Assembly (NCBI GenBank): GCA_021789975.1
Contig: JAJYIT010000003.1
Location: 124,001-188,000, forward strand
Source of the DNA: Bacteroidota bacterium
GTDB lineage: Bacteria > Bacteroidota > Ignavibacteria > Kryptoniales > JAKASW01
Reading direction: 5' to 3'
Length of the DNA: 64,000 nt
The notes below the pieces were generated by a model. It searched no databases. It was not told the DNA's origin and saw only the letters and a list, made by a program, of their open reading frames with translations. Positions 25,307 through 36,643 of the stretch are shown here, one piece after another; position 1 is the stretch's first letter, and each line of letters starts with the position of its first letter. Made by a program: the position numbers and the translations under genes.

Positions 25307-25914
25307 AAAACCTTTATGATAAATGAATGATAATAATGCTGGGAAGTTGAACCGCTATGGAGGAATATGAGATTTCTACTATCCTGATTATCCTATGAAG
25401 AAGACCAAGTCCCGGCTTCTGAACACCGTCGCCCGTTCTTCTATTTTGGAGGGGAGAAGATGTTTCTTTAACTGTTCCAATATAACTAAAGGGAGGGAAT
25501 AGTTCCGAAGGTTATTTTTAAATTCCTGCGATCCATCGATTGCCACTACTTTCGACCGGACTCGACTCGCATTTACACGCTTCCCCTTCTTTCATAGAAG
25601 GAGAGGTCGGCTGAATCGCTTCGCAGGCGAGGACCCGTGAAATCTCATCAAGAATCGATCCTACTCACTTGTCCAAATTCAGAGTGTTCGTTCGTCATCC
25701 AATTGAAACAACTAGAAGCGCGGCCGAAAAGCCCTTATGCAACCACAAAGTCACCAGGGCACAAAGCATAACAATGTGACTATGTTCGGATTTGACGATT
25801 CCCTATGTGTCTTTGAGCATTCTTGGTCAATTATCTGCCGGATATTTAGAAGCCGGCACCAATATTCAGGGAACCAGGCCGTAATGCCTAACATAGACTG
25901 CAAAGGAGTTCAAG
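25307..25914. other. Divergent intergenic region between the helicase and the ECF42 cluster
   Basis: About 600 bp with no gene recognised. It must hold the helicase promoter (minus) and the first promoter of the DGPF cluster (plus). I looked for an ECF42-like TGTCGA -35 element upstream of 25915 and did not find one. A repeat occupies 25741-25827. AAAGGAG just before 25915 is a ribosome site. Confidence 0.45.
25741..25827. repeat. Imperfect inverted repeat of the ACCACAAAG type
   Basis: The left arm (from 25741) starts AACCACAAAGTCACC and contains GCACAAAGCATA. The right arm (25804-25827) reads TATGTGTCTTTGAGC...TTGGT, roughly its complement. Related AACCGC/CGCAAAG motifs occur at 8461-8488, 31608-31658 and 46774-46802. 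Confidence 0.5.
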
Positions 25915-26253
25915 ATGAAAGATTATTTATTGCTGTTCAGAGGCAGCCTCGATTCTGCAGATGTCTCACCGGAACAGATGCAGAAGTCAATGATGAAATG
26001 GAAGAACTGGATGGACGGGCTTGCGGTGGAGAATAGGGTGAATGTCGGACAGAGGCTAACCGTTACACGCGCAACAATCAGTGGAACAGTGAAAAGAGTC
26101 GTTGACGGGCCTTACATCGAGGGTAAGGAAATAGTCGGCGGATATATGATGTCAAAAGCCGACACTCTAGAAGAAGCCGTTGAGCTTGCAAAAGGATGTC
26201 CGATCTTCGAATCCGGCGGAAGCACCGAAGTCATAGAAATCGCCGCCAGCTAA
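25915..26253 (+). CDS. YCII-related DGPF-domain protein (1)
   Basis: 112 residues of the YCII/DGPF family (dimeric ferredoxin-like fold). The signature DGPYIEGKEIVGGY is at ~60-75, and the YLLLFRGS start and A-K-G-C-P-x-x-x-x-G-G-S-x-E-V end are standard. Proteins of this family are the typical genomic partners and targets of ECF42 sigma factors, and one is encoded at 31695-32999. Biochemical function is unknown. It is the first gene of the long plus-strand cluster. Confidence 0.9.
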   Translation: MKDYLLLFRGSLDSADVSPEQMQKSMMKWKNWMDGLAVENRVNVGQRLTVTRATISGTVKRVVDGPYIEGKEIVGGYMMSKADTLEEAVELAKGCPIFESGGSTEVIEIAAS

Positions 26254-26366
26254 CCTCCCCAAGGGCGCTGATGTGACATGGCGGCTATCTTATGGTAACA
26301 GAGTACTTCCAATCAAATCTTGCCTAGGTCGAAGGCAAGGTGAGCGAAAAAAATCAAAGGTGACAC

Positions 26367-26981
26367 ATGAGCACACAATTAGCATATACAATTTCCGCAG
26401 CAGTGGACGCAACGGGTCCGTTCCTTCCACCGGTAGAAAAGCCGAAGACACTCTTGATGAAATTTGTTTACTATTTCATGAAGAAGCAGTTTGGCAAAGT
26501 AATGTCTCCCCTTGCGGTTCATTCGGCAAGACTGCCAAATGCGTTCGGCCTCTTTTATACAAAGGTCGGGAGATTAGACAAGAAGCTGACATTACCTGAA
26601 GAAACCGCCGTTCTTATCCGCCAGCAAGTGGCGCGAATCAACGTCTGTCTCTTCTGCATGGACTCGAGCCGGTACTTTGCGATCAGCAAGTCAATGAACA
26701 TGGCAAAGTTCGATGCGCTCGACGAATACAAGACGAGTCCGCTCTTTAGCGAAGGTGAAAGAGCCGCCTTGAATTACGTGACGAAGCTGACGAAGGAGAA
26801 GAAAGCCGATCCTGGACTTTTCGCCGACATGGCAAAATATTTTTCAGACCGGGAGATATGCGAGATAATCTGGCTGGTCGCAAGCGAGCATCTTTATAAC
26901 ATGACCAACGTCGGATTGAATATACATTCAGACATGCTGTGCGACATTACGAAAAAGAAGAAGGCACAGCAAGATAGATAA
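26367..26981 (+). CDS. Carboxymuconolactone decarboxylase/AhpD-like protein
   Basis: 204 residues, all-alpha. The AhpD-like redox motif region is NVCLFCMDSSRYFA (C-x-x-C, ~91-94). It is preceded by LPEETAVLIRQQVARI and followed by a helical C-terminus (EICEIIWLVASEHLYNMTNVGL). The family includes alkylhydroperoxidase AhpD and gamma-carboxymuconolactone decarboxylase, and the CxxC pair favours a peroxidase-like thiol chemistry here. CMD proteins are the classic partners of ECF41 sigma factors. The SnoaL-like gene follows after 12 nt with an AAGGAGA ribosome site. Confidence 0.88.
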   Translation: MSTQLAYTISAAVDATGPFLPPVEKPKTLLMKFVYYFMKKQFGKVMSPLAVHSARLPNAFGLFYTKVGRLDKKLTLPEETAVLIRQQVARINVCLFCMDSSRYFAISKSMNMAKFDALDEYKTSPLFSEGERAALNYVTKLTKEKKADPGLFADMAKYFSDREICEIIWLVASEHLYNMTNVGLNIHSDMLCDITKKKKAQQDR

Positions 26982-26993
26982 AGGAGAAAGAAA

Positions 26994-27359
26994 ATGGCAG
27001 ACTCACCAACGAAAGAGGTCATTACAAAGTACTTCGATGCAATCGAAAAGAAGGCCGACTGGCAATCGTTGATCTCGGACGAAATGGCATTCACGATGCC
27101 CGCCCAGACCACCCACGGCAAGGCATCTTATGTTGAAATTACCGGAAGATTCCTCCGCGCCGTTACAGGCGTAAAGGTGAAGGAGCTGATCGTCGAAAGG
27201 AACAAGGCGTGTGCCATCGCGGCGTACGATCTGCGCTCCCCCAAGGGGAACACCTCGACGAAAGAGGTTGTTGAGATTTTATCGGTAAGGGGCGACAAGC
27301 TCGCCTCGTCGTCCATATATTTCGATACCGAGGATTTCAAAGCTTTCATGGCTCAATAA
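26994..27359 (+). CDS. SnoaL-like/NTF2-fold protein
   Basis: 121 residues with the cone-shaped SnoaL/NTF2 pattern: helix at the N-terminus (EVITKYFDAIEKKADWQSLISDEMAF), then strands (KELIVERNKACAIAAYDLRSPKG) and EVVEILSVRGDKLASSSIYFDTEDF. The family holds cyclases, isomerases and ligand sensors. A SnoaL-like domain is also the C-terminal regulatory domain of ECF41 sigma factors, so its free-standing form beside a CMD gene and an ECF42 factor is suggestive. Co-transcribed with its neighbours (12-13 nt spacing). Confidence 0.85.
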   Translation: MADSPTKEVITKYFDAIEKKADWQSLISDEMAFTMPAQTTHGKASYVEITGRFLRAVTGVKVKELIVERNKACAIAAYDLRSPKGNTSTKEVVEILSVRGDKLASSSIYFDTEDFKAFMAQ

Positions 27360-27372
27360 AGGTGGATAGAGC

Positions 27373-27753
27373 ATGACATACGATGTGGAACTAGCTAACC
27401 GTATCAGAGGAGAGTTGGTCAATTACAGGAAAGTCGAAGAGAAGAAGATGTTCGGTTTTCTTGTGTTCATGGTGAACGGAAGGATGTGCCTTGGAGTTCG
27501 CGGCGGCGAGATGATGCTTCGGCTCTCTCCTGACCTTGCCGCGGAAGCGGTCCAACGACATGGATGCAGTCCGCTGATCATGAAAGGAAGAGTGTCAAAA
27601 AGAATGGTCATGATCGACGAATCAGTGATGACATCACAGAAAAATTTTGAAAACTGGATAATGCTAGCATTAAACTTCATCAAACCTACCGGTCCAGCAA
27701 AACCAGGTAACACCGCGAGTCAGCAGCGGAACAAATCTGCGAGTAGAATATGA
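27373..27753 (+). CDS. TfoX N-terminal domain protein
   Basis: 126 residues with the TfoX/Sxy N-terminal fold: KKMFGFLVFMVNGRMCLGVRGGEMMLRL (residues ~24-51, split strands), then a helical part ending in NFENWIMLALNF. Only this domain is present, without the C-terminal TfoX domain of competence regulators. Single-domain forms commonly sit in stress or YCII-type clusters. The tail after ~105 is Lys/Pro/Ser-rich. Its stop overlaps the next gene (ATGA). Confidence 0.88.
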   Translation: MTYDVELANRIRGELVNYRKVEEKKMFGFLVFMVNGRMCLGVRGGEMMLRLSPDLAAEAVQRHGCSPLIMKGRVSKRMVMIDESVMTSQKNFENWIMLALNFIKPTGPAKPGNTASQQRNKSASRI

Positions 27754-28133
27754 AAGAGTATCTCTTGCTTTTCCGGGGCGGATATGACAGGGTCACCGCG
27801 CGACCCGAGCAGGATTTCCTGAGCCACATGGACAAATGGAAAAAGTGGATGGACGATCTGCAGATGCAAAAGGTCTTTATCGCGGCACAGCCGCTCGGCC
27901 CCACGGGGAAACAGGTCGTCGGAAAGAGTAAGGCCGTAACGGATGGACCGTTTGTGGAAGGAAAGGAAATAGTCGGCGGCTATCTGATTTGCAAGGCCCT
28001 GTCCTACGAAGAAGCAATAACGATAGCAGAGGGTTGTCCCGTCTTGGAAGCCGGCGGCATGGTTGAGGTCAGAGAAATCACCGAGATGGACGACATAACC
28101 GATTCATACCTTAAAGGGAGAAAAGCAGAATGA
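27750..28133 (+). CDS. YCII-related DGPF-domain protein (2)
   Basis: 127 residues. DGPFVEGKEIVGGYL carries the family signature in its most canonical form, and the EAITIAEGCPVLEAGGMVEVREI end is standard. It is coupled to the TfoX-like gene and the third DGPF gene by 4-nt ATGA overlaps on both sides. Role as for the first copy: a probable ECF42 target of unknown activity. The three copies are clearly diverged paralogues rather than recent tandem duplicates. Confidence 0.91.
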   Translation: MKEYLLLFRGGYDRVTARPEQDFLSHMDKWKKWMDDLQMQKVFIAAQPLGPTGKQVVGKSKAVTDGPFVEGKEIVGGYLICKALSYEEAITIAEGCPVLEAGGMVEVREITEMDDITDSYLKGRKAE

Positions 28134-28483
28134 AAGATTTTATGCTCCTGTTCAGATTTCCGGTCGGAAACAAATTCTACAATAATTCAGCTTCGCCGGA
28201 GGAATTCCAGACGGAAGCGCTGAATTGGCAGAAGTGGATGGAAGGTCTTGTGAAAGACGGAAGGATTACGCCCGGTCAGCAGCTCTCAACGTCTGTCGCC
28301 AAAGTTATATCGGGATCGAAGAAGGTGGTACAGGATGGACCTTTTGCCGAAGGGAAAGAAATCGTGGGGAATCACTGTACCATCAAAGCACGTGACTTGA
28401 GCGAGGCACTCGAAATTGCAAAAGGCTGCCCTGTCCTCGATCAGGATGGAAGTGTCGAAGTAAGAGGGATGACGACATTTTAG
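28130..28483 (+). CDS. YCII-related DGPF-domain protein (3)
   Basis: 117 residues with DGPFAEGKEIVGNH as the family signature and the terminal EIAKGCPVLDQDGSVEVRGM. It has the longer N-terminal loop (FPVGNKFYNNSASPEEF) found in one DGPF subgroup. The start overlaps the stop of DGPF copy 2 by 4 nt. After it comes a ~100-bp gap before the GC-rich methyltransferase gene, so the first transcription unit may end here. Confidence 0.91.
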   Translation: MKDFMLLFRFPVGNKFYNNSASPEEFQTEALNWQKWMEGLVKDGRITPGQQLSTSVAKVISGSKKVVQDGPFAEGKEIVGNHCTIKARDLSEALEIAKGCPVLDQDGSVEVRGMTTF

Positions 28484-28586
28484 TTAATCGCGAAATCCAT
28501 ATGCCAAATTTCAAACAGGCTCCAATATTCAAAATCGCAAAGCCAAAGAGGGACCTCTTGAACAAACGAGGGAGGAGGTAGTATCC

Positions 28587-29204
28587 ATGCCCCACCCAGA
28601 CTGGAACGGGCATTACGCGGAAGGGTTCTTACCATGGGACACCGGCAGGCCCGATCCGCTCCTGGCAGAGTTCGTCGAGTCCAGGCGCATCAAACCCGGT
28701 CGGGCGCTCGAAGTCGGGTGCGGAACCGGGACCAACTCATTATGGCTGGCACAACGCGGTTTCGACGTACTCGGCATCGACATTGCACCGCTGGCAGTGG
28801 AGAAGGCTCGCGCCAAGCAGGCGGGGGTGAAGGGCTGCCGGTTCGAAAACGTGGACTTTCTCAATGCGCCACCTCCAGGTCCTTTCGATTTCATTTTCGA
28901 CCGCGGCTGCTTCCACATCTTCGACGAACCCAGGCAGCGTGAACGCTTTGCCGCGCAGGTCGCCGGCCTCCTGGGGCCAGATGGACAGTGGCTAAGTCTC
29001 GTCGGGAGCACCGAGGGTCCGGCCCGCGAAGTGGGCCCGCCCCGACGGAGTGCACGCGATGTACTGGCGGCAATCGAGCCGGTGCTGGAGATCACCGACC
29101 TGCGGTCTGTCGTCTTCGATGTGCAAGATGAATCTCCCATGGCGTGGTTTTGCCTCTCACGCCGCCGCAAAGCGCCTGCACAGCCGTCGACCGGTCACGG
29201 ATGA
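28587..29204 (+). CDS. Class I SAM-dependent methyltransferase (TPMT-like)
   Basis: 205 residues. The SAM motif EVGCGTGTNSLWLA (~42-55) is followed by GIDIAPLAVEKA, and a FDFIFDRGCFH motif follows. The N-terminal WNGHYAEGFLPWDTGRP resembles thiopurine/thiocyanate S-methyltransferase-like enzymes, which methylate small thiol or halide substrates. It has a very strong GGAGGAGGT ribosome site. The gene is visibly richer in G and C, especially at third positions, than the genes around it, which suggests recent transfer. It is in the cluster but may be an insertion. Confidence 0.88.
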   Translation: MPHPDWNGHYAEGFLPWDTGRPDPLLAEFVESRRIKPGRALEVGCGTGTNSLWLAQRGFDVLGIDIAPLAVEKARAKQAGVKGCRFENVDFLNAPPPGPFDFIFDRGCFHIFDEPRQRERFAAQVAGLLGPDGQWLSLVGSTEGPAREVGPPRRSARDVLAAIEPVLEITDLRSVVFDVQDESPMAWFCLSRRRKAPAQPSTGHG

Positions 29205-29283
29205 AGAGCAAATCAGACTTGACTTATTATCAAATCTGTTCTATGATATTCGATCTTTGACCAATCACAAAAAGGAGATTGTC

Positions 29284-29736
29284 ATGAACCAGGGCAAGAG
29301 CACCACCTCAAGCAGAAAGAAGTCGCAGCAATTCACCGCTGATGAAAAAGCTGCGATGAGGGCCCGCGCCAAAGAATTGAAGGCGGAAGCAGGCAAGGCA
29401 GCAGAGGAGAAGGCCGCGCTCGAAGCAATCGCCAAGATGAAGGAGCCGGACCGTAGCATGGCCAAGCGGCTGCATGCAATCATCAAAGCCAGCGGCCTGT
29501 CTGCGAAAACATGGTACGGGATGCCTGCGTACGCCAACGAGGAGGGCAGTGTCATCTGTTACTTCCGCGACCGACTGAAGTTCAAAGAGAGGTACGCGAT
29601 GTTCGGATTCAATGACTCCGCGAAGCTCGATGACGGTGCAATGTGGCCCGTCGCCTATGCACTGCCGGAGTTGACTCCCGCCCACGAGGCGAAGATCGCC
29701 GCGCTCGTGAAGAAAGCGGTGGGAGAAAAAGCATGA
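29284..29736 (+). CDS. DUF1801 (YdhG-like) protein with Lys/Ala-rich N-terminus
   Basis: 150 residues from ATG 29284, which has AAAAGGAGA upstream; the frame runs open to 29050 inside the methyltransferase gene but in a different sense. Residues ~1-60 are a charged Lys/Glu/Ala-rich helix. The rest is the DUF1801 fold (AKTWYGMPAYANEEGSVICYF, then FKERYAMFGF, then ALPELTPAHEAKIAALVKKAV). Function unknown; the fold is frataxin-like. The next gene overlaps its stop (ATGA). Confidence 0.85.
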   Translation: MNQGKSTTSSRKKSQQFTADEKAAMRARAKELKAEAGKAAEEKAALEAIAKMKEPDRSMAKRLHAIIKASGLSAKTWYGMPAYANEEGSVICYFRDRLKFKERYAMFGFNDSAKLDDGAMWPVAYALPELTPAHEAKIAALVKKAVGEKA

Positions 29737-30119
29737 ACATTTTGCTATGGATTCTTCAAGTCCTGTTGGCATTGTGGGAAGCGGTAGGCGGAGTCTATGT
29801 GGTAAACAATTACGATAAAATCGCTAATGGGTGGGCACTGAACGCTTTGCCGAAGTCTTTTTGGATAGCCATCGGCGTGCTACAGGTTTTGTTCGCATTA
29901 GGTTTGATCCTGCCCGGCGCGAAGTTGCGAAAACAAAATTCCATCGCGGCGGTCGGCCTGGCATTACTGTCGTTGTTGGGTATTGCGCTGTACTTTCAGT
30001 ATTCCGGTTTTCCGGGCATCCTGTGGGGCTTGATACCTGCGATCCTGGCCGGGTTCGTGGCGTACAAGAGGTGGCCAAGACTATCGCCGTTGACGAAGGA
30101 AGGAGCTTTGCTATCGTGA
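29733..30119 (+). CDS. DoxX-like small membrane protein
   Basis: 128 residues, four membrane helices (~4-24, 45-66, 72-92, 97-115). The pattern LQVLLALWEAVGGVY...SFWIAIGVLQVLFALGLILPG is that of the DoxX-like family (PF13564). The start at ATG 29733 overlaps the DUF1801 stop by 4 nt. DoxX-like proteins occur in many sigma-factor and stress clusters, and their activity is unknown. Confidence 0.8.
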   Translation: MNILLWILQVLLALWEAVGGVYVVNNYDKIANGWALNALPKSFWIAIGVLQVLFALGLILPGAKLRKQNSIAAVGLALLSLLGIALYFQYSGFPGILWGLIPAILAGFVAYKRWPRLSPLTKEGALLS

Positions 30120-30195
30120 GAAGCTGCCTCGCCCTAAGGCTGATTACCACCGCTGGCACCGTCCCGGTGTGTCGTGTCAGCAAAAGAGGTGATAT

Positions 30196-30570
30196 GTGAC
30201 CAAGCGACTACAAATTCTTCTTTACGTTATTGCCGGTTACCTTGCAGTCTTCGGGATAATGTTTTTGCTCTTTCCCGGTCTCGCTGAGAAGTTCACAGAA
30301 AGTAACCATGATCCCTCGCTCGATATGCTGTATGGATTATACGCGCTGGTTTTTGCATTTGTCTCGTTCCTCGCTGCAAAGGAAAAACGGGCTGCGAGCA
30401 GGTTGTCTCTGATCATATTGATACTCATGACAGGGCATGTGCTGGTATTTGGATATCAGCTCGTTACGAGCATGAAGGCATTTGCTCAGTCCGGTCCGCC
30501 GTTCATTGTGAACGCGATCCTGGCTGTCGTTCTGTTTTGGTTTAGGAAGAAAGGTAAGCAAACAACTTAG
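30196..30570 (+). CDS. Small four-helix membrane protein
   Basis: 124 residues from GTG 30196, with an AGAGGT ribosome site. Hydrophobic stretches are ~9-27, 45-60, 69-88 and 97-115, with a Lys-rich C-terminus. The layout YVIAGYLAVFGIMFLLFPG...LYGLYALVFAFVSFLAAKE fits uncharacterised DUF4345/DoxX-like membrane proteins. Nothing indicates a specific role beyond its position in the sigma-factor cluster. Confidence 0.7.
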   Translation: MTKRLQILLYVIAGYLAVFGIMFLLFPGLAEKFTESNHDPSLDMLYGLYALVFAFVSFLAAKEKRAASRLSLIILILMTGHVLVFGYQLVTSMKAFAQSGPPFIVNAILAVVLFWFRKKGKQTT

Positions 30571-30592
30571 TGCTGCTGAGAGGATTAGGGAA

Positions 30593-31175
30593 TTGTCAAT
30601 GATCCATTTTGAAACAAGACTGTTAAACATCGGATCATGGACCATTCTAAGATTGCCTGAGGAGGCGAGCGCAAGACTTCCGTCACGAGGCCAGACCATG
30701 GTCGAACGTACCATCAACGGTTTCCCTTTCCAAACGTGGCTCGAACCGGACGGTAAGTGGAGCCACTGGTTTAGAGTGGACGACTCGCTGCTTGGTAGTT
30801 CCCATGCTGGTACAGGCGACAAGGTGAAGATGGCGATTGAACCCATGAAGGAATGGCCGGACCCAGACGTGCCGGCGGATTTGAAGCGTGCCCTCTCAGT
30901 CTCGCCACAAGCGCGCGCTCTACAAGTCCGTTACGCCGATGGCGCGCCGGGAATGGATTCGCTGGATACGCGCAACCAGTTCAGATGAGATTCGTAAACG
31001 ACGAATCGAAGTAGCGATCTCGAAACTTGAAAGCGGAGAGCGAAGACCGTGCTGCCGGAATCGTAACCTATGCACCGAACCGTCAGTTTCAAAGAACGGA
31101 GTGCTGCTCAATCCCACGCAAGGCACTCCTGGTGGAAGAAAGAAAGTTGCAACAAGGACGATGAGCCGAGTATGA
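30593..31175 (+). pseudogene. Frameshifted DUF1905-OmdA (YdeI-like) gene
   Basis: The first frame (30593 to ~30930) encodes a DUF1905 domain (TINGFPFQTWLEPDGKWSHWF ... DVPADLKRALSVSP). Past residue ~112 it loses sense. From about 30915 the next frame continues with the bacteriocin-protection YdeI/OmdA domain (SVTPMARREWIRWIRAT, then RRIEVAISKLESGERRPCC) to the stop at 31173-31175. In intact relatives both lie in one protein, so one base has been gained or lost near 30920-30935. The downstream DUF1801 gene overlaps the stop of the second frame as ATGA, which supports that frame as the true 3' end. A sequencing error is possible. Confidence 0.85.
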
Positions 31176-31594
31176 AAACAAGTACCAATCCATCCACGAA
31201 TGAGAAGTCCGCATCTCAACAGATAGATGACATCATCAAAGAGCCGGGTGACTGGCGGGGGAAGAAATTGGCACAGTTGCGAGCCATTATTAAGAAGGCC
31301 GATCCGAATTTGGTCGAAGAGGTGAAGTGGAAGAAGCCATCAAAGCCATCAGGAGTCCCCGTTTGGTCTCACAATGGAATTGTCTGCGTGGCAGACACAC
31401 TCAAAAACGCCGTGAGGCTGACATTCCCGAAGGGCGCTCAGGTGAAAGATCCGAAAAAACTGTTCAACACGCGATTAGACAGCAAGACTGTTCGTGCCAT
31501 CGACTTCTTTGAAGATGATATTGTGGACGAGGCAGCGCTGAAGGCACTCATCATCAATGCGGTGAAGTTGAACAAAAGAAAATTGCCCGAGTGA
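31172..31594 (+). CDS. DUF1801 protein (second copy)
   Basis: 140 residues from ATG 31172, whose first bases overlap the stop of the YdeI-like gene. It has the DUF1801 pattern: DWRGKKLAQLRAIIKKADPNLVEEVKWKKPS, then WSHNGIVCVADTLKNAVRLTF, then a Lys-rich end. It is much diverged from the copy at 29284-29736. Likely part of the sigma-factor regulon by position; function unknown. Confidence 0.86.
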   Translation: MKTSTNPSTNEKSASQQIDDIIKEPGDWRGKKLAQLRAIIKKADPNLVEEVKWKKPSKPSGVPVWSHNGIVCVADTLKNAVRLTFPKGAQVKDPKKLFNTRLDSKTVRAIDFFEDDIVDEAALKALIINAVKLNKRKLPE

Positions 31595-31607
31595 TAAGAT
31601 GAATCTC

Positions 31608-31658
31608 ACCGCAAACCTGCTTGCCGGCAGGCAGGGACGCAACGACGCAAAGACTAGG
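31608..31658. repeat. CGCAAAG-type repeat with GCCGGC palindrome
   Basis: Starts ACCGCAAAC, has the imperfect palindrome CCTGCTTGCCGGCAGGCAGG in its middle and ends ACGCAACGACGCAAAG. It lies directly before the sigma-factor gene. It shares the ACCGC/CGCAAAG words with the elements at 8415, 25741 and 46727. Confidence 0.45.
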
Positions 31659-31694
31659 ATTATTTAGCTCGGCGCCTCAAGGGTATTCTTTATT

Positions 31695-32999
31695 ATGGAC
31701 CAGGATAACGTCGATAAACTTGTCGATCATCTTTTCCGCCACGAAGCCGGTAAGATGGTCTCCGTTTTGACCAGGACATTCGGAGCGGAGAACCTCGCGC
31801 TCGTTGAGGACGTGGTACAGGACACTCTCCTGCAAGCCGTGCAGGTCTGGCCCGTCAAAGGAATACCGGATAATCCGTCTGCATGGTTTCACAGAGCTGC
31901 AAGGAACAAAGCAATCGATGTCCTCAGGCGCAACTCGCACTCGGTGCGCATCAGTCCCGACGGCGAAGAGGAATCGTTGCCGGACACGGGGCCTCCCGTC
32001 CAGGACTTACTCGACGACGACTGGCAGGAAGACAGCATCAAAGACGACATGCTGCGGATGATGTTCGTTTGCTGCCATCCGGGAATCCCGGAGGAAGGCC
32101 AGGTCACTCTGATACTAAAGACTCTTTGCGGCTTCAGCACTTCAGAAATCGCGCGGGCGTTCCTGACCTCCGAAGACACGATCTCAAAGCGCCTGTACAG
32201 GACAAAGGAATTCTTCCGACAGAACAAGATTCCTTTTGTCGTTCCACCGCATGAGGATCTCAAATCGAGAACCGAAGCAGTCCTTAATTCCATCTATCTT
32301 CTCTTCAACGAAGGTTACAGTTCAACAGACTCCGAGAAATTGATCAGAGAAGACCTCATGAGTGAAGCGATGCTTCTCTGTAAGATGTTGACGGAGGACC
32401 CGAACACTCAGCGACCGGAGACTTTCGCATTGATGGCGCTCATGTGCTTTCATTCATCCAGAAATGAAAGCCGGCTTACGCCGGCCGGAGAAATAATTCT
32501 TCTACCTCTCCAGGATAGGAGCAAGTGGAATCAGGATCTGATTGTGCTCGGCAACGAGTATATGGATAAGGCCGCATTCGGAGAATCTGTAAGCAAGTAT
32601 CACCTGGAAGCAGCGATCGCATTCGAGCACTGTGCCGCTAAGACTTACGAGACCACGAACTGGAAAAGAATCCTCGAGCTTTATGAATGGCTGTGCAGGA
32701 TTTCTCCATCGCCGGTAACGGAGCTGAACCGGGTGGTAGCAGTGATGCGGGTGCACGGACCTCATGAGGCGTTGAAAGCTGTCGAATCTATCTCAGGTAA
32801 AAAGAGAATCGAAAACTACTGCCTGTACCATAGCCTTATTGGACAAATCTACCTGCGGCTCAATCGGGCGACCGAAGCTAAGGCAGAATTCGAAGCGGCA
32901 ATAAAGCTTACAAAATCGACTACAGAAAAGAAGCTACTTGAAAGAAAGATCGCCGAACTCACGCTGACGTCTGATGAATCTTCTGCCCGAAGCTATTAA
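31695..32999 (+). CDS. ECF RNA polymerase sigma factor, ECF42-like (DUF6596 C-terminal domain)
   Basis: 434 residues, much longer than ordinary ECF factors. Sigma region 2 covers ~10-75 (EDVVQDTLLQAVQVWP, AARNKAIDVLRR), and region 4 covers ~120-170 (LILKTLCGFSTSEIARAFLTSEDTISKRLYRTK). The long helical C-terminal domain (~190-430) carries the ECF42 landmarks LLPLQDRSKWNQ and YHLEAAIAFEHC and TPR-like repeats. ECF42 factors lack a classical anti-sigma factor; the C-terminal extension is needed for activity, and they are linked to DGPF proteins, three of which are encoded upstream. It ends in a TTAA overlap with the convergent DUF3795 gene. Confidence 0.92.
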   Translation: MDQDNVDKLVDHLFRHEAGKMVSVLTRTFGAENLALVEDVVQDTLLQAVQVWPVKGIPDNPSAWFHRAARNKAIDVLRRNSHSVRISPDGEEESLPDTGPPVQDLLDDDWQEDSIKDDMLRMMFVCCHPGIPEEGQVTLILKTLCGFSTSEIARAFLTSEDTISKRLYRTKEFFRQNKIPFVVPPHEDLKSRTEAVLNSIYLLFNEGYSSTDSEKLIREDLMSEAMLLCKMLTEDPNTQRPETFALMALMCFHSSRNESRLTPAGEIILLPLQDRSKWNQDLIVLGNEYMDKAAFGESVSKYHLEAAIAFEHCAAKTYETTNWKRILELYEWLCRISPSPVTELNRVVAVMRVHGPHEALKAVESISGKKRIENYCLYHSLIGQIYLRLNRATEAKAEFEAAIKLTKSTTEKKLLERKIAELTLTSDESSARSY

Positions 33000-34417: not shown

Positions 34418-36643
34418 CTAAAATATGATCCGAATTACAGGCCGCTCCAATTTCCCTTTCATCTCGACGGATATCATTCCATTCGAGTAGTCAAACGGAA
34501 CATTAAAGCCGTTCACTTTTATTTCCTTTGGCTGATTTGTAGAGTACGCGAGGAACGTACCGGACTGCCCAATTCTAATCGTAACCTGGTTGCCACTCCG
34601 CCGGCAGCCCTCGATTGTGCCCGGCGCATCATAAAAACCACTCAAGCCGATTGGAGCAAAGCCGTTTTCGATCGGGGATATGTAGTATAACATGTATCCA
34701 AGCCTACCGAGTCTTACAGGGATGGGTTGGTTTCTTTCGGCTATGAAATGTGACTTTGAAAAATACTCATAGACGAGGAAGCGGTTGCCGCGGATACCAT
34801 GGACGTCGGAAGGCTCAAATGTTCCCGTGACAATATTTGTATCGGCCAGGTTCCAAATCGCCAAAAGTCCGATATGCCCCGACCTACTGAAAGCTTTGAA
34901 AGGCTTAGGGTCCTGCACTTGGAACAGACAATCTTCCGTAGGGCGAGCTGGCACATCCGTGCGGACTATCATTCCGTTTCGGCAAACGAGCGGCCGAAGA
35001 ACGCCGAAGTCCTCTTTGCCCGGCTTGTCCGTGACGTATACCGGGCCGTCGCTGATTGCACGCGCGATCGCCTCAAATGTCGCGTTGGGACCGTAACTCT
35101 CAAACTCGTCATAATCTGGATAAACCATCTCCCCGAACCAAAGAGAATTGGTGACGGCACCCAAAACATGCACGGCCGCATTTCCCCTCATGATATCATA
35201 GTTCAGACCGGGTTCATAGGGGAAAAAATCTTCCTCACTGCGCGCGACGGCAGTCGTCCCGAAATTCAAGTACGCATCGTTTCCCATGTCCATGCAGTTT
35301 ATCACCGTGTTGCCGAAGTATTTATCGACGGCATGGTTCAACTGCTCGTGGATTTTTCTCGCAAAATCAAAAACCGGATATTTGCCTCTCGCCATGCCCG
35401 CAATCGATAACTGGTTGTCCACCTTCACGAAATCGACCCCCTGGGATTTCAGATATCCATACCAATCATCATAAAACAAGGAAAGCGAATCAGAGTACGG
35501 AGAAACAAAATAGAACCTCGAGACTTTTCCACCGGGGTCTTTTTCCGTCCACGAGAACATGGCTCTTTTAAAGCGACGCCCGATCGCCGAATTCGAATCG
35601 ATACCGTTCCAATAGCCGTTTATCGTATGCCATACCCCGACGTACTTAACTCCGTAGTCCTTCTTCAGCCTCCGGATCACGGGTTTGAACCCGCCGGGAA
35701 ACTTCGACGGAATCGGTTGATAGCTCTCCAACGCCCCATCTCTATTCTGCAGCCAACCATCGTCAACGATGATCCATGATAGGGGAAACCGGTGAGTGCG
35801 AAATGACTGTGCCGCATCGATGAGCAGTGTATCGCTCAGGTCTTTGCCGTTGTTTGAGGCGTTCCACGAACACCATCCGAAGTAATCAAGAATCTTCGGG
35901 TACTTCTTATTAGCCCTAAGATCGCTCGACCTCCCGATCATCGAAAGGCCATCATGGTACAGATCGGATATGAGCCTGTAAGGATCCGATCCAAATCCGA
36001 CTGCGAGCATCGGTACCAGAGCAGATCTCGCGCCGTCGTATCCGCTCACGGCCTTTGCTCCGATTCCGTCACCGCTCCTGCCGAGCGATGATTCGTAGCC
36101 CTCTCCACTCAGCGGCATTGCTGCGCCGTATGCGCCATCCTTGTATTGCCAGAGAAAGAACTGGACGCCGTGGTCAGGAAAGCGATCAATGGCCTCCACC
36201 TTCATCGGCTTTGTCCATGGATTCCAATCATTCATGAACCAGTAGCATATCCCCTGTTTATAACCTGCAAAGTATTTGAAGAAGAGACCGATGTAGTCTG
36301 CTCCTGACGGCGGTCTGTTGCCGTGCGTAATCAGAAAGAGCCCGACAACGCTCTTATGAGATAATTGTCTAGCAATCACTCCGAGTCGCGAGCCGTTTCC
36401 GAATTGAAACAGAAACGAGGAATCGTCTACCATGCTGCACTCAGGGCTGCCCCAGTTCTTCATACCTTGAATTGCCGGGATGCCGCCGGAAAGGCGCGCC
36501 TTGTTTCCCCAGCTTAAGACAAGATGGCTGTTTGAGACTGCGAGTCTTACACTGTTCTGACGAATGCCCCGAGTCATAGCTCCGCATGCGGTCACACAAA
36601 CCAGCGATACGAAAATCAAGTAGAGGGCTCTTCTCATTGACAA
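34418..36643 (-). CDS. GH36-like alpha-galactosidase (Sip1/raffinose synthase-type), exported
   Basis: 741 residues. The N-terminal hydrophobic segment ends in VTAC, a lipobox-like motif, so it is probably exported and perhaps lipid-anchored. The catalytic barrel carries YFGWCSWNAS, the WIIVDDGW motif, the probable nucleophile region FVKVDNQ and ARSEEDFFP, the pattern of the raffinose synthase/Sip1-type branch of glycoside hydrolase family 36. A beta-sandwich C-terminus follows (~620-741). It probably removes alpha-galactosyl residues from oligosaccharides; the substrate is uncertain because members of this branch vary. It lies 43 nt downstream of the SDR gene and probably shares its operon. 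Confidence 0.88.
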   Translation of the reverse strand: MSMRRALYLIFVSLVCVTACGAMTRGIRQNSVRLAVSNSHLVLSWGNKARLSGGIPAIQGMKNWGSPECSMVDDSSFLFQFGNGSRLGVIARQLSHKSVVGLFLITHGNRPPSGADYIGLFFKYFAGYKQGICYWFMNDWNPWTKPMKVEAIDRFPDHGVQFFLWQYKDGAYGAAMPLSGEGYESSLGRSGDGIGAKAVSGYDGARSALVPMLAVGFGSDPYRLISDLYHDGLSMIGRSSDLRANKKYPKILDYFGWCSWNASNNGKDLSDTLLIDAAQSFRTHRFPLSWIIVDDGWLQNRDGALESYQPIPSKFPGGFKPVIRRLKKDYGVKYVGVWHTINGYWNGIDSNSAIGRRFKRAMFSWTEKDPGGKVSRFYFVSPYSDSLSLFYDDWYGYLKSQGVDFVKVDNQLSIAGMARGKYPVFDFARKIHEQLNHAVDKYFGNTVINCMDMGNDAYLNFGTTAVARSEEDFFPYEPGLNYDIMRGNAAVHVLGAVTNSLWFGEMVYPDYDEFESYGPNATFEAIARAISDGPVYVTDKPGKEDFGVLRPLVCRNGMIVRTDVPARPTEDCLFQVQDPKPFKAFSRSGHIGLLAIWNLADTNIVTGTFEPSDVHGIRGNRFLVYEYFSKSHFIAERNQPIPVRLGRLGYMLYYISPIENGFAPIGLSGFYDAPGTIEGCRRSGNQVTIRIGQSGTFLAYSTNQPKEIKVNGFNVPFDYSNGMISVEMKGKLERPVIRIIF

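Follow-up and report, generated by a model that had tools for sequence, protein, structure and literature searches.

The Question Raised by the Locus

When an array of small same-strand genes ends in an ECF42 sigma factor and also holds a CMD/AhpD-like protein and a free SnoaL-like protein, both reminiscent of ECF41 systems, the question arises whether a single stress module can join the two kinds of regulation. ECF41 and ECF42 are widespread groups of sigma factors that lack classical anti-sigma factors, and their inputs and outputs are poorly known. The array considered here occupies positions 25915–32999 (+ strand, 13 genes) of the window, by which we mean the whole 64,000-nucleotide stretch of DNA that was analysed (G000:C73:124001-188000, part of a 4.7-Mb genome), and a complete ECF42 sigma factor is its last gene. 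An earlier note, made from the letters of the window, had read it as one module combining both regulatory types. The present analysis favors another answer, to which we assign a probability of about 0.72, namely that the locus would be a single ECF42-controlled stress operon, the cargo of which includes a putative thiol peroxidase-type CMD/AhpD protein descended from ECF41-controlled CMDs. This reading is carried by the gene content of the array and its conservation, by the nesting of the CMD protein within an ECF41-linked clade, by two promoter sites, and by the lack of an ECF41 sigma factor or promoter in the array.

Ancestry of the CMD Protein

The CMD protein of the window has no match to the Pfam CMD family at E ≤ 0.01. 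Solved AhpD-like structures match it by profile with an E-value of 1.6e-18, a CxxC motif is invariant in the protein and its homologues, and its close homologues are ECF41-linked, and on these sequence comparisons it is assigned to the CMD/AhpD family. The AlphaFold model is poor, with a predicted local distance difference test (pLDDT) score of 43.8, and was unusable for a structure search.

A profile built from the window CMD and three relatives gave 14 matches in 395 genomes of the phylum. Eight CMD homologues are located 0–88 bp from the gene of a sigma factor of ~290 residues that shows two motifs of ECF41, LPEP in the linker and an NPDKL-like one at the C-terminus. One of these CMD-linked sigma factors scores above the curated cut-offs of both SigJ and SigX4, which are also the best families of the others tested. 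Most of the ECF41-linked CMD homologues are preceded by TGTCACA..CGTC, the ECF41 consensus (Wecke et al. 2012, PMC3426412).

In the tree, five CMDs from ECF42 arrays and two ECF41-linked CMDs form a clade with 100/100 support, and this clade is placed within the ECF41-linked one. A topology in which the ECF41-linked CMDs form a group separate from those of ECF42 arrays is rejected (approximately unbiased (AU) test, p 5e-51); the test does not reject one common origin for the CMDs linked to ECF42 (p 0.38). By its phylogenetic position the window CMD thus belongs to the clade of ECF41 partners, which means that an ECF41 hallmark is truly present in an ECF42 array. The suggestion of the earlier note on this point is borne out by the nesting, and the arrangement recurs in other genomes, as described below.

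Promoters and the Predicted Regulon

A position weight matrix (PWM) for ECF42-type promoters, trained without the window site, gives 31.6 for the site at 25670 on the + strand and 11.5 for the next best, making it the sole strong site in the window; the exact motif also occurs at 25670 only. As to the common promoter motif that the earlier note required, a promoter of the ECF42 type does precede the array. Across 94 ECF42 loci, 43 pairs of TGTC and CGTC with exactly 19 bases between them stand before DGPF or ECF42 genes (three of these 43 sites being from duplicate loci), against 1–2 occurrences for every other spacing, and the targets of RpoE10 from S. meliloti have the same 19-base spacing (PMC6180224). 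The predicted transcription start is at ~25703, from which a 5′ untranslated region (UTR) near 210 nt is expected.

The exact motif, TGTCCNNA-N14-TCGTCAT, is found twice in the 4.7-Mb genome, compared to ~0.14 occurrences expected (9.4 million positions / 4^13). The second site (C9:131854, − strand) is 80 bp upstream of the start codon (ATG) of another, unlinked AhpD-type CMD gene, and the same pair of exact sites is present in the relative G001. Of the sites with one mismatch, those inspected in G000 and G068 are within open reading frames or score low, and a control search of the genome with the spacing set to 17 N returned background matches only. Adjoining the second CMD gene there is a further array (L014, 4057-13402 of G000:C9) of VOC, methyltransferase, SRPBCC, RibD-type, three DGPF, DUF1801 and DoxX genes, with no sigma factor.

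An ECF41-type promoter (TGTCACA-N16-CGTC) is absent before the CMD gene in the window and in two related loci, L016, which belongs to a near-identical relative (a Bacteroidota metagenome-assembled genome), and L096, from a second species of the genus; an ECF41 sigma factor (fused SnoaL-like domain, LPEP, NPDKL) is absent from the array. ECF41 and ECF42 promoters have their layout in common and differ directly after TGTC, such that the ECF41 promoter of L138 still scores 22.5 with the ECF42 matrix. The notion of one module combining both regulatory types is thus supported as far as the ECF41-type CMD is concerned and unsupported as to the regulators, the array having one promoter, of the ECF42 type. 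Since the only other exact copy of that promoter also precedes a CMD gene, the locus looks more like the takeover by one regulator of another's target than like a two-regulator machine.

Composition and Conservation of the Array

The features of the array, all on the + strand, are as follows.

25670–25696, +: ECF42-type promoter, TGTCCAAATTCAGAGTGTTCGTTCGTC, with −35 TGTCC, −10 CGTC and 19 bases between TGTC and CGTC
25915–26253, +: DGPF/YCII protein 1 (PF03795, 41.3 bits)
26367–26981, +: CMD/AhpD-like protein of the ECF41-partner clade, with CxxC (NVCLFC), assigned by structure profiles, tree and homologues
26994–27359, +: free SnoaL-like (NTF2-fold) protein (PF12680 SnoaL_2, 28.0 bits, cut-off 27)
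27373–27753, +: TfoX_N-domain protein (PF04993, 54.8 bits)
27750–28133, +: DGPF/YCII protein 2 (PF03795, 56.6 bits), 4-nt overlap with the TfoX gene
28130–28483, +: DGPF/YCII protein 3 (PF03795, 39.8 bits), 4-nt overlap with DGPF 2
28587–29204, +: TPMT-like S-adenosylmethionine-dependent methyltransferase (PF05724, 76.4 bits), conserved in L016 and L096
29284–29736, +: DUF1801-like protein, weak (PF08818, E 0.004, below the Pfam cut-off), orthologues in L016 and L096
29733–30119, +: DoxX_2 membrane protein (PF13564, 34.5 bits)
30196–30570, +: small membrane protein, no family above cut-off, conserved in L016
30593–30988, +: DUF1905 (YdeI/OmdA-type) protein (PF08922, 43.9 bits)
31070–31594, +: DUF1801 protein (PF08818, 71.7 bits); ATG 31172 may be the true start
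31695–32999, +: ECF42 sigma factor with region 2, region 4 and a DUF6596/TPR C-terminal extension (DUF6596, 111.3 bits; sigma tree)

The sigma factor matches region 2 with 38.6 bits, region 4 with 24.3 bits (just below the cut-off) and TPR with E 2e-4; together with DUF6596 these are the matches of ECF42, as the note had read from the long C-terminal domain. The coordinates, strand and gene identities of the 7-kb array were likewise given correctly, including the three DGPF proteins, the TfoX-like, DoxX-like and YdeI/OmdA proteins and two DUF1801 proteins, of which the one at 29284 is the weaker relative; the TPMT-like methyltransferase and the small membrane protein were missing from that list.

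From the CMD gene through DGPF 3, adjacent genes are separated by gaps of at most 13 nt or overlap by 4 nt, and elsewhere in the array some gaps are 76–183 bp. In L016, whose sigma factor is 98% identical to that of the window, the array is almost fully conserved, with a frameshift in DGPF3. L096 has DGPF-CMD-SnoaL-TfoX-DGPF-MTase-DUF1801 at its 5′ end, the sigma factor at its 3′ end and other cargo in between, so the 3′ half of the array varies between species. The window and L096 proteins are 74% (CMD) and 62% (SnoaL) identical, which indicates that the core of the array has been held together across real divergence. The support for these local claims comes from one close relative (L016) and one congener (L096). 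The methyltransferase gene has a GC content of 63.6%, ~14 points above the 49.5% of the window, which suggests that it entered the array later, although L016 and L096 have the gene too.

Two further observations concern the sequence in and around the array. Repeat-like short spacers are found near both of its ends, at 25738–25765 (GCAACCACAAAGTCACCAGGGCACAAAG), in the long 5′ UTR, and at 31630–31655 (GGACGCAACGACGCAAAGACT). Downstream, at 34418–36643 on the − strand, there is a Raffinose-synthase/Sip1-family glycosidase (PF05691, 253 bits) in what is a bacterial genome.

The SnoaL-like Protein

The free SnoaL-like protein at 26994 passes the SnoaL_2 cut-off narrowly. Its structural model has a pLDDT of 90.9 and template modeling (TM) scores of ~0.8 to NTF2-fold structures, the nearest folds in Foldseek being TerC and limonene epoxide hydrolase. 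In NCBIfam the protein is matched best by the SnoaL half of the sigma factor model PRK08241 (E 7e-8). The position of the gene after CMD had raised the idea that the protein is the severed C-terminus of an ECF41 factor, and this is ruled out by motifs, profile comparison and fold: the protein has no counterparts of DGGxK and NPDKL, and its profile comparison with ECF41 C-termini gave a probability of 1.8%, i.e. no convincing match. A role as a separate sensor, as envisaged in the note, is for the same reasons unsupported, the NTF2 fold being a common one.

Recurrence beside Other ECF42 Factors

A survey of ECF42 neighborhoods had been proposed in the note as a check. In 68 genomes with ECF42 genes, five members of the close CMD subfamily (E below 1e-100) occur, all five less than 6 kb from an ECF42 gene and in at least two phyla. 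Two of the five are in genomes whose ECF42 sigma factors group with Verrucomicrobiota in the sigma tree, far from the window sigma, from which it follows that there was more than one capture of the CMD, or that it moved between arrays. For the broad Pfam CMD family, 3 of ~80 matches are less than 10 kb from an ECF42 gene, compared to 0.5 expected (Poisson P 0.016). In the Pfam neighbor counts CMD is not among the top families near ECF42, and its enrichment is seen by subfamily and by position only.

Free SnoaL-type genes are present in other ECF42 operons as well (L023, L024 and L071). By position, at least five SnoaL genes are near ECF42 among the ~150 matches listed, with ~1 expected; by neighbor count they are 3 of 140 in one batch and not among the top families listed for the other, versus 2 of 135 controls. 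A general enrichment of SnoaL near ECF42 is thus unproven, so of the survey's two parts the one on CMD holds and the one on SnoaL gives at most a weak enrichment. A clear enrichment around ECF42 is shown by the YCII, VOC and SRPBCC families, with YCII/DGPF, which occurs three times in the array, accounting for 49 of 280 ECF42 neighbors and not being among the families listed for the 135 controls.

Some other neighborhoods deserve mention. In Fulvivirga sp. M361 (L050 7239-12588) an ECF41 sigma factor, CMD, DinB, an unknown gene, ECF42 and DGPF units stand side by side on one strand. L034, a Verrucomicrobiota-type array that includes CMD, has strong promoters of the ECF42 type at 2380 and 2573, 193 bp from each other, before its DGPF genes. 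BNR/Vps10 sortilin-type repeat proteins and DUF899 proteins repeatedly adjoin ECF42 genes.

Proposed Mechanism and Alternatives

How the system may work, from the use of the promoter and co-transcription to the signal, the gating and every enzyme function, we infer as follows. The trigger would be oxidative or electrophile stress. The sigma factor, with its own TPR extension and probably also a DGPF partner as the presumed gate (a gating proposed for ECF42 in PMC8999054), would recognize TGTCC-N18-CGTC at 25670, drive transcription of the array, its own gene included, and act in trans on the second CMD gene, which is on a different contig. Peroxides would be cleared by the CMD by means of its CxxC motif, and the DGPF, SnoaL, DUF1801, TfoX and methyltransferase proteins may be co-induced detoxification or repair cargo.

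Several points weigh against this reading. The genome encodes two further ECF42 sigma factors with DGPF neighbors (L012, 11056-13151 of G000:C31, and L013, 9404-11031 of G000:C36), either of which may be the one that reads the array promoter; neither of these loci has a site above 11 by the ECF42 promoter matrix. The absence of an ECF41 sigma factor applies to the array, and the genome may encode one elsewhere. The twin sites in G000 and G001, two closely related genomes, amount to about one independent observation. The L096 array has a degenerate promoter (PWM 16.1). The gaps of 76–183 bp and the long predicted 5′ UTR leave room for internal promoters. Finally, an ECF42-type promoter was found in none of the 60 regions upstream of CMD genes that were scored in other genomes with ECF42 (best score 8.0), which makes the CMD link a property of this lineage and rules out a general rule that ECF42 controls CMDs.

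An alternative in which the array is under dual control, by ECF42 and by an ECF41 factor encoded elsewhere, with the free SnoaL protein as a detached ECF41-type sensor domain, would account for the ECF41-partner ancestry of the CMD, for the SnoaL gene directly 3′ of it, which is the usual ECF41 place, and for the PRK08241 match, and the ECF41-CMD pair beside an ECF42-DGPF unit in Fulvivirga shows such neighbors together. However, PRK08241 is a model other than SigJ/ECF41, the SnoaL protein has neither the ECF41 motifs nor a convincing ECF41 profile match and is nearest to NTF2 enzymes, the array has no ECF41 sigma factor, the CMD is not preceded by TGTCACA..CGTC in any of the three loci (window, L016, L096), and the sigma factor still has its own TPR extension. 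We consider dual control quite improbable.

Somewhat less improbable, but still unlikely, is that CMD and SnoaL are incidental cargo of a fast-changing stress-gene neighborhood with no shared regulation. The variable 3′ half, the weak SnoaL enrichment and the sigma-less array L014, where DGPF, VOC, DUF1801, DoxX, RibD-type and SRPBCC genes are gathered in the same genome, would fit such a picture. It is at odds with the DGPF-CMD-SnoaL-TfoX-DGPF order shared by species with 74% CMD identity, with the tight packing from CMD to DGPF 3, and with the fact that the only two exact promoter sites of the genome belong to the array and to a second CMD. Integron-like gene cassettes would explain the many small unrelated same-strand genes, the cassette-common families and some repeat-like spacers; however, inverted repeats of at least 22 nt are absent from the array (attC structure was judged by eye only), several of its genes overlap by 4 nt, the gene order is conserved across species, and a promoter heads the array, so that we regard cassettes as hardly credible.

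The single ECF42-controlled operon can be extended into an evolutionary proposal. The takeover of ECF41-type CMDs by ECF42 appears to be lineage-specific. Going further, ECF42 factors may have captured CMD genes from ECF41 control, once or more, through the alteration of a few −35 bases, from TGTCACA to TGTCC within the same layout, with ECF42-linked CMDs passing between phyla; the regulon of this lineage would then be approximately the array plus one CMD, the CMD being its defining output. We give this wider proposal even odds. That an ECF41-type enzyme stands behind a promoter of the ECF42 type points to an overlap in the stresses to which both sigma groups respond. A change of two or three bases is enough to test the promoter difference, and a two-site regulon is small enough for complete testing; if true, the capture would be a documented switch of target class between two self-regulated sigma groups.

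Comparison with Known Systems

The ECF41 systems with CMD partners (ydfG of B. licheniformis and RSP_0606 of R. sphaeroides, PMC3426412) are related to the present locus through the window CMD, which is homologous to the ECF41-linked CMDs of the phylum and has the CxxC motif; the partner of an ECF41 factor is a CMD, an oxidoreductase or an epimerase. The ECF41 promoter has the same overall layout, with TGTCACA at −35 where the window has TGTCC. In ECF41 systems the SnoaL domain is fused to the sigma factor, whereas in the window it is free and of another subfamily, and the array has no ECF41 sigma factor. With the AhpD/CMD peroxidases (Atu0492, Bmp8 and the AhpD structures) the window CMD shares the profile match and CxxC; it differs in not reaching the Pfam CMD model, and its peroxidase function is only predicted.

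A likeness is also seen to ECF42 systems with DGPF/YCII neighbors (RpoE10 of S. meliloti, ECF-10 of P. putida and Sven_0747 of Streptomyces venezuelae), which have in common with the window the long TPR/DUF6596 extension of the sigma factor and the DGPF neighbors, and the promoter of the RpoE10 targets, TGTC and CGTC with 19 bases between them, is that of the window (PMC6180224). However, the known ECF42 systems comprise two or few genes, while the window array has 13, including a CMD of the ECF41 clade, and a second CMD stands elsewhere in its genome behind the same type of promoter.

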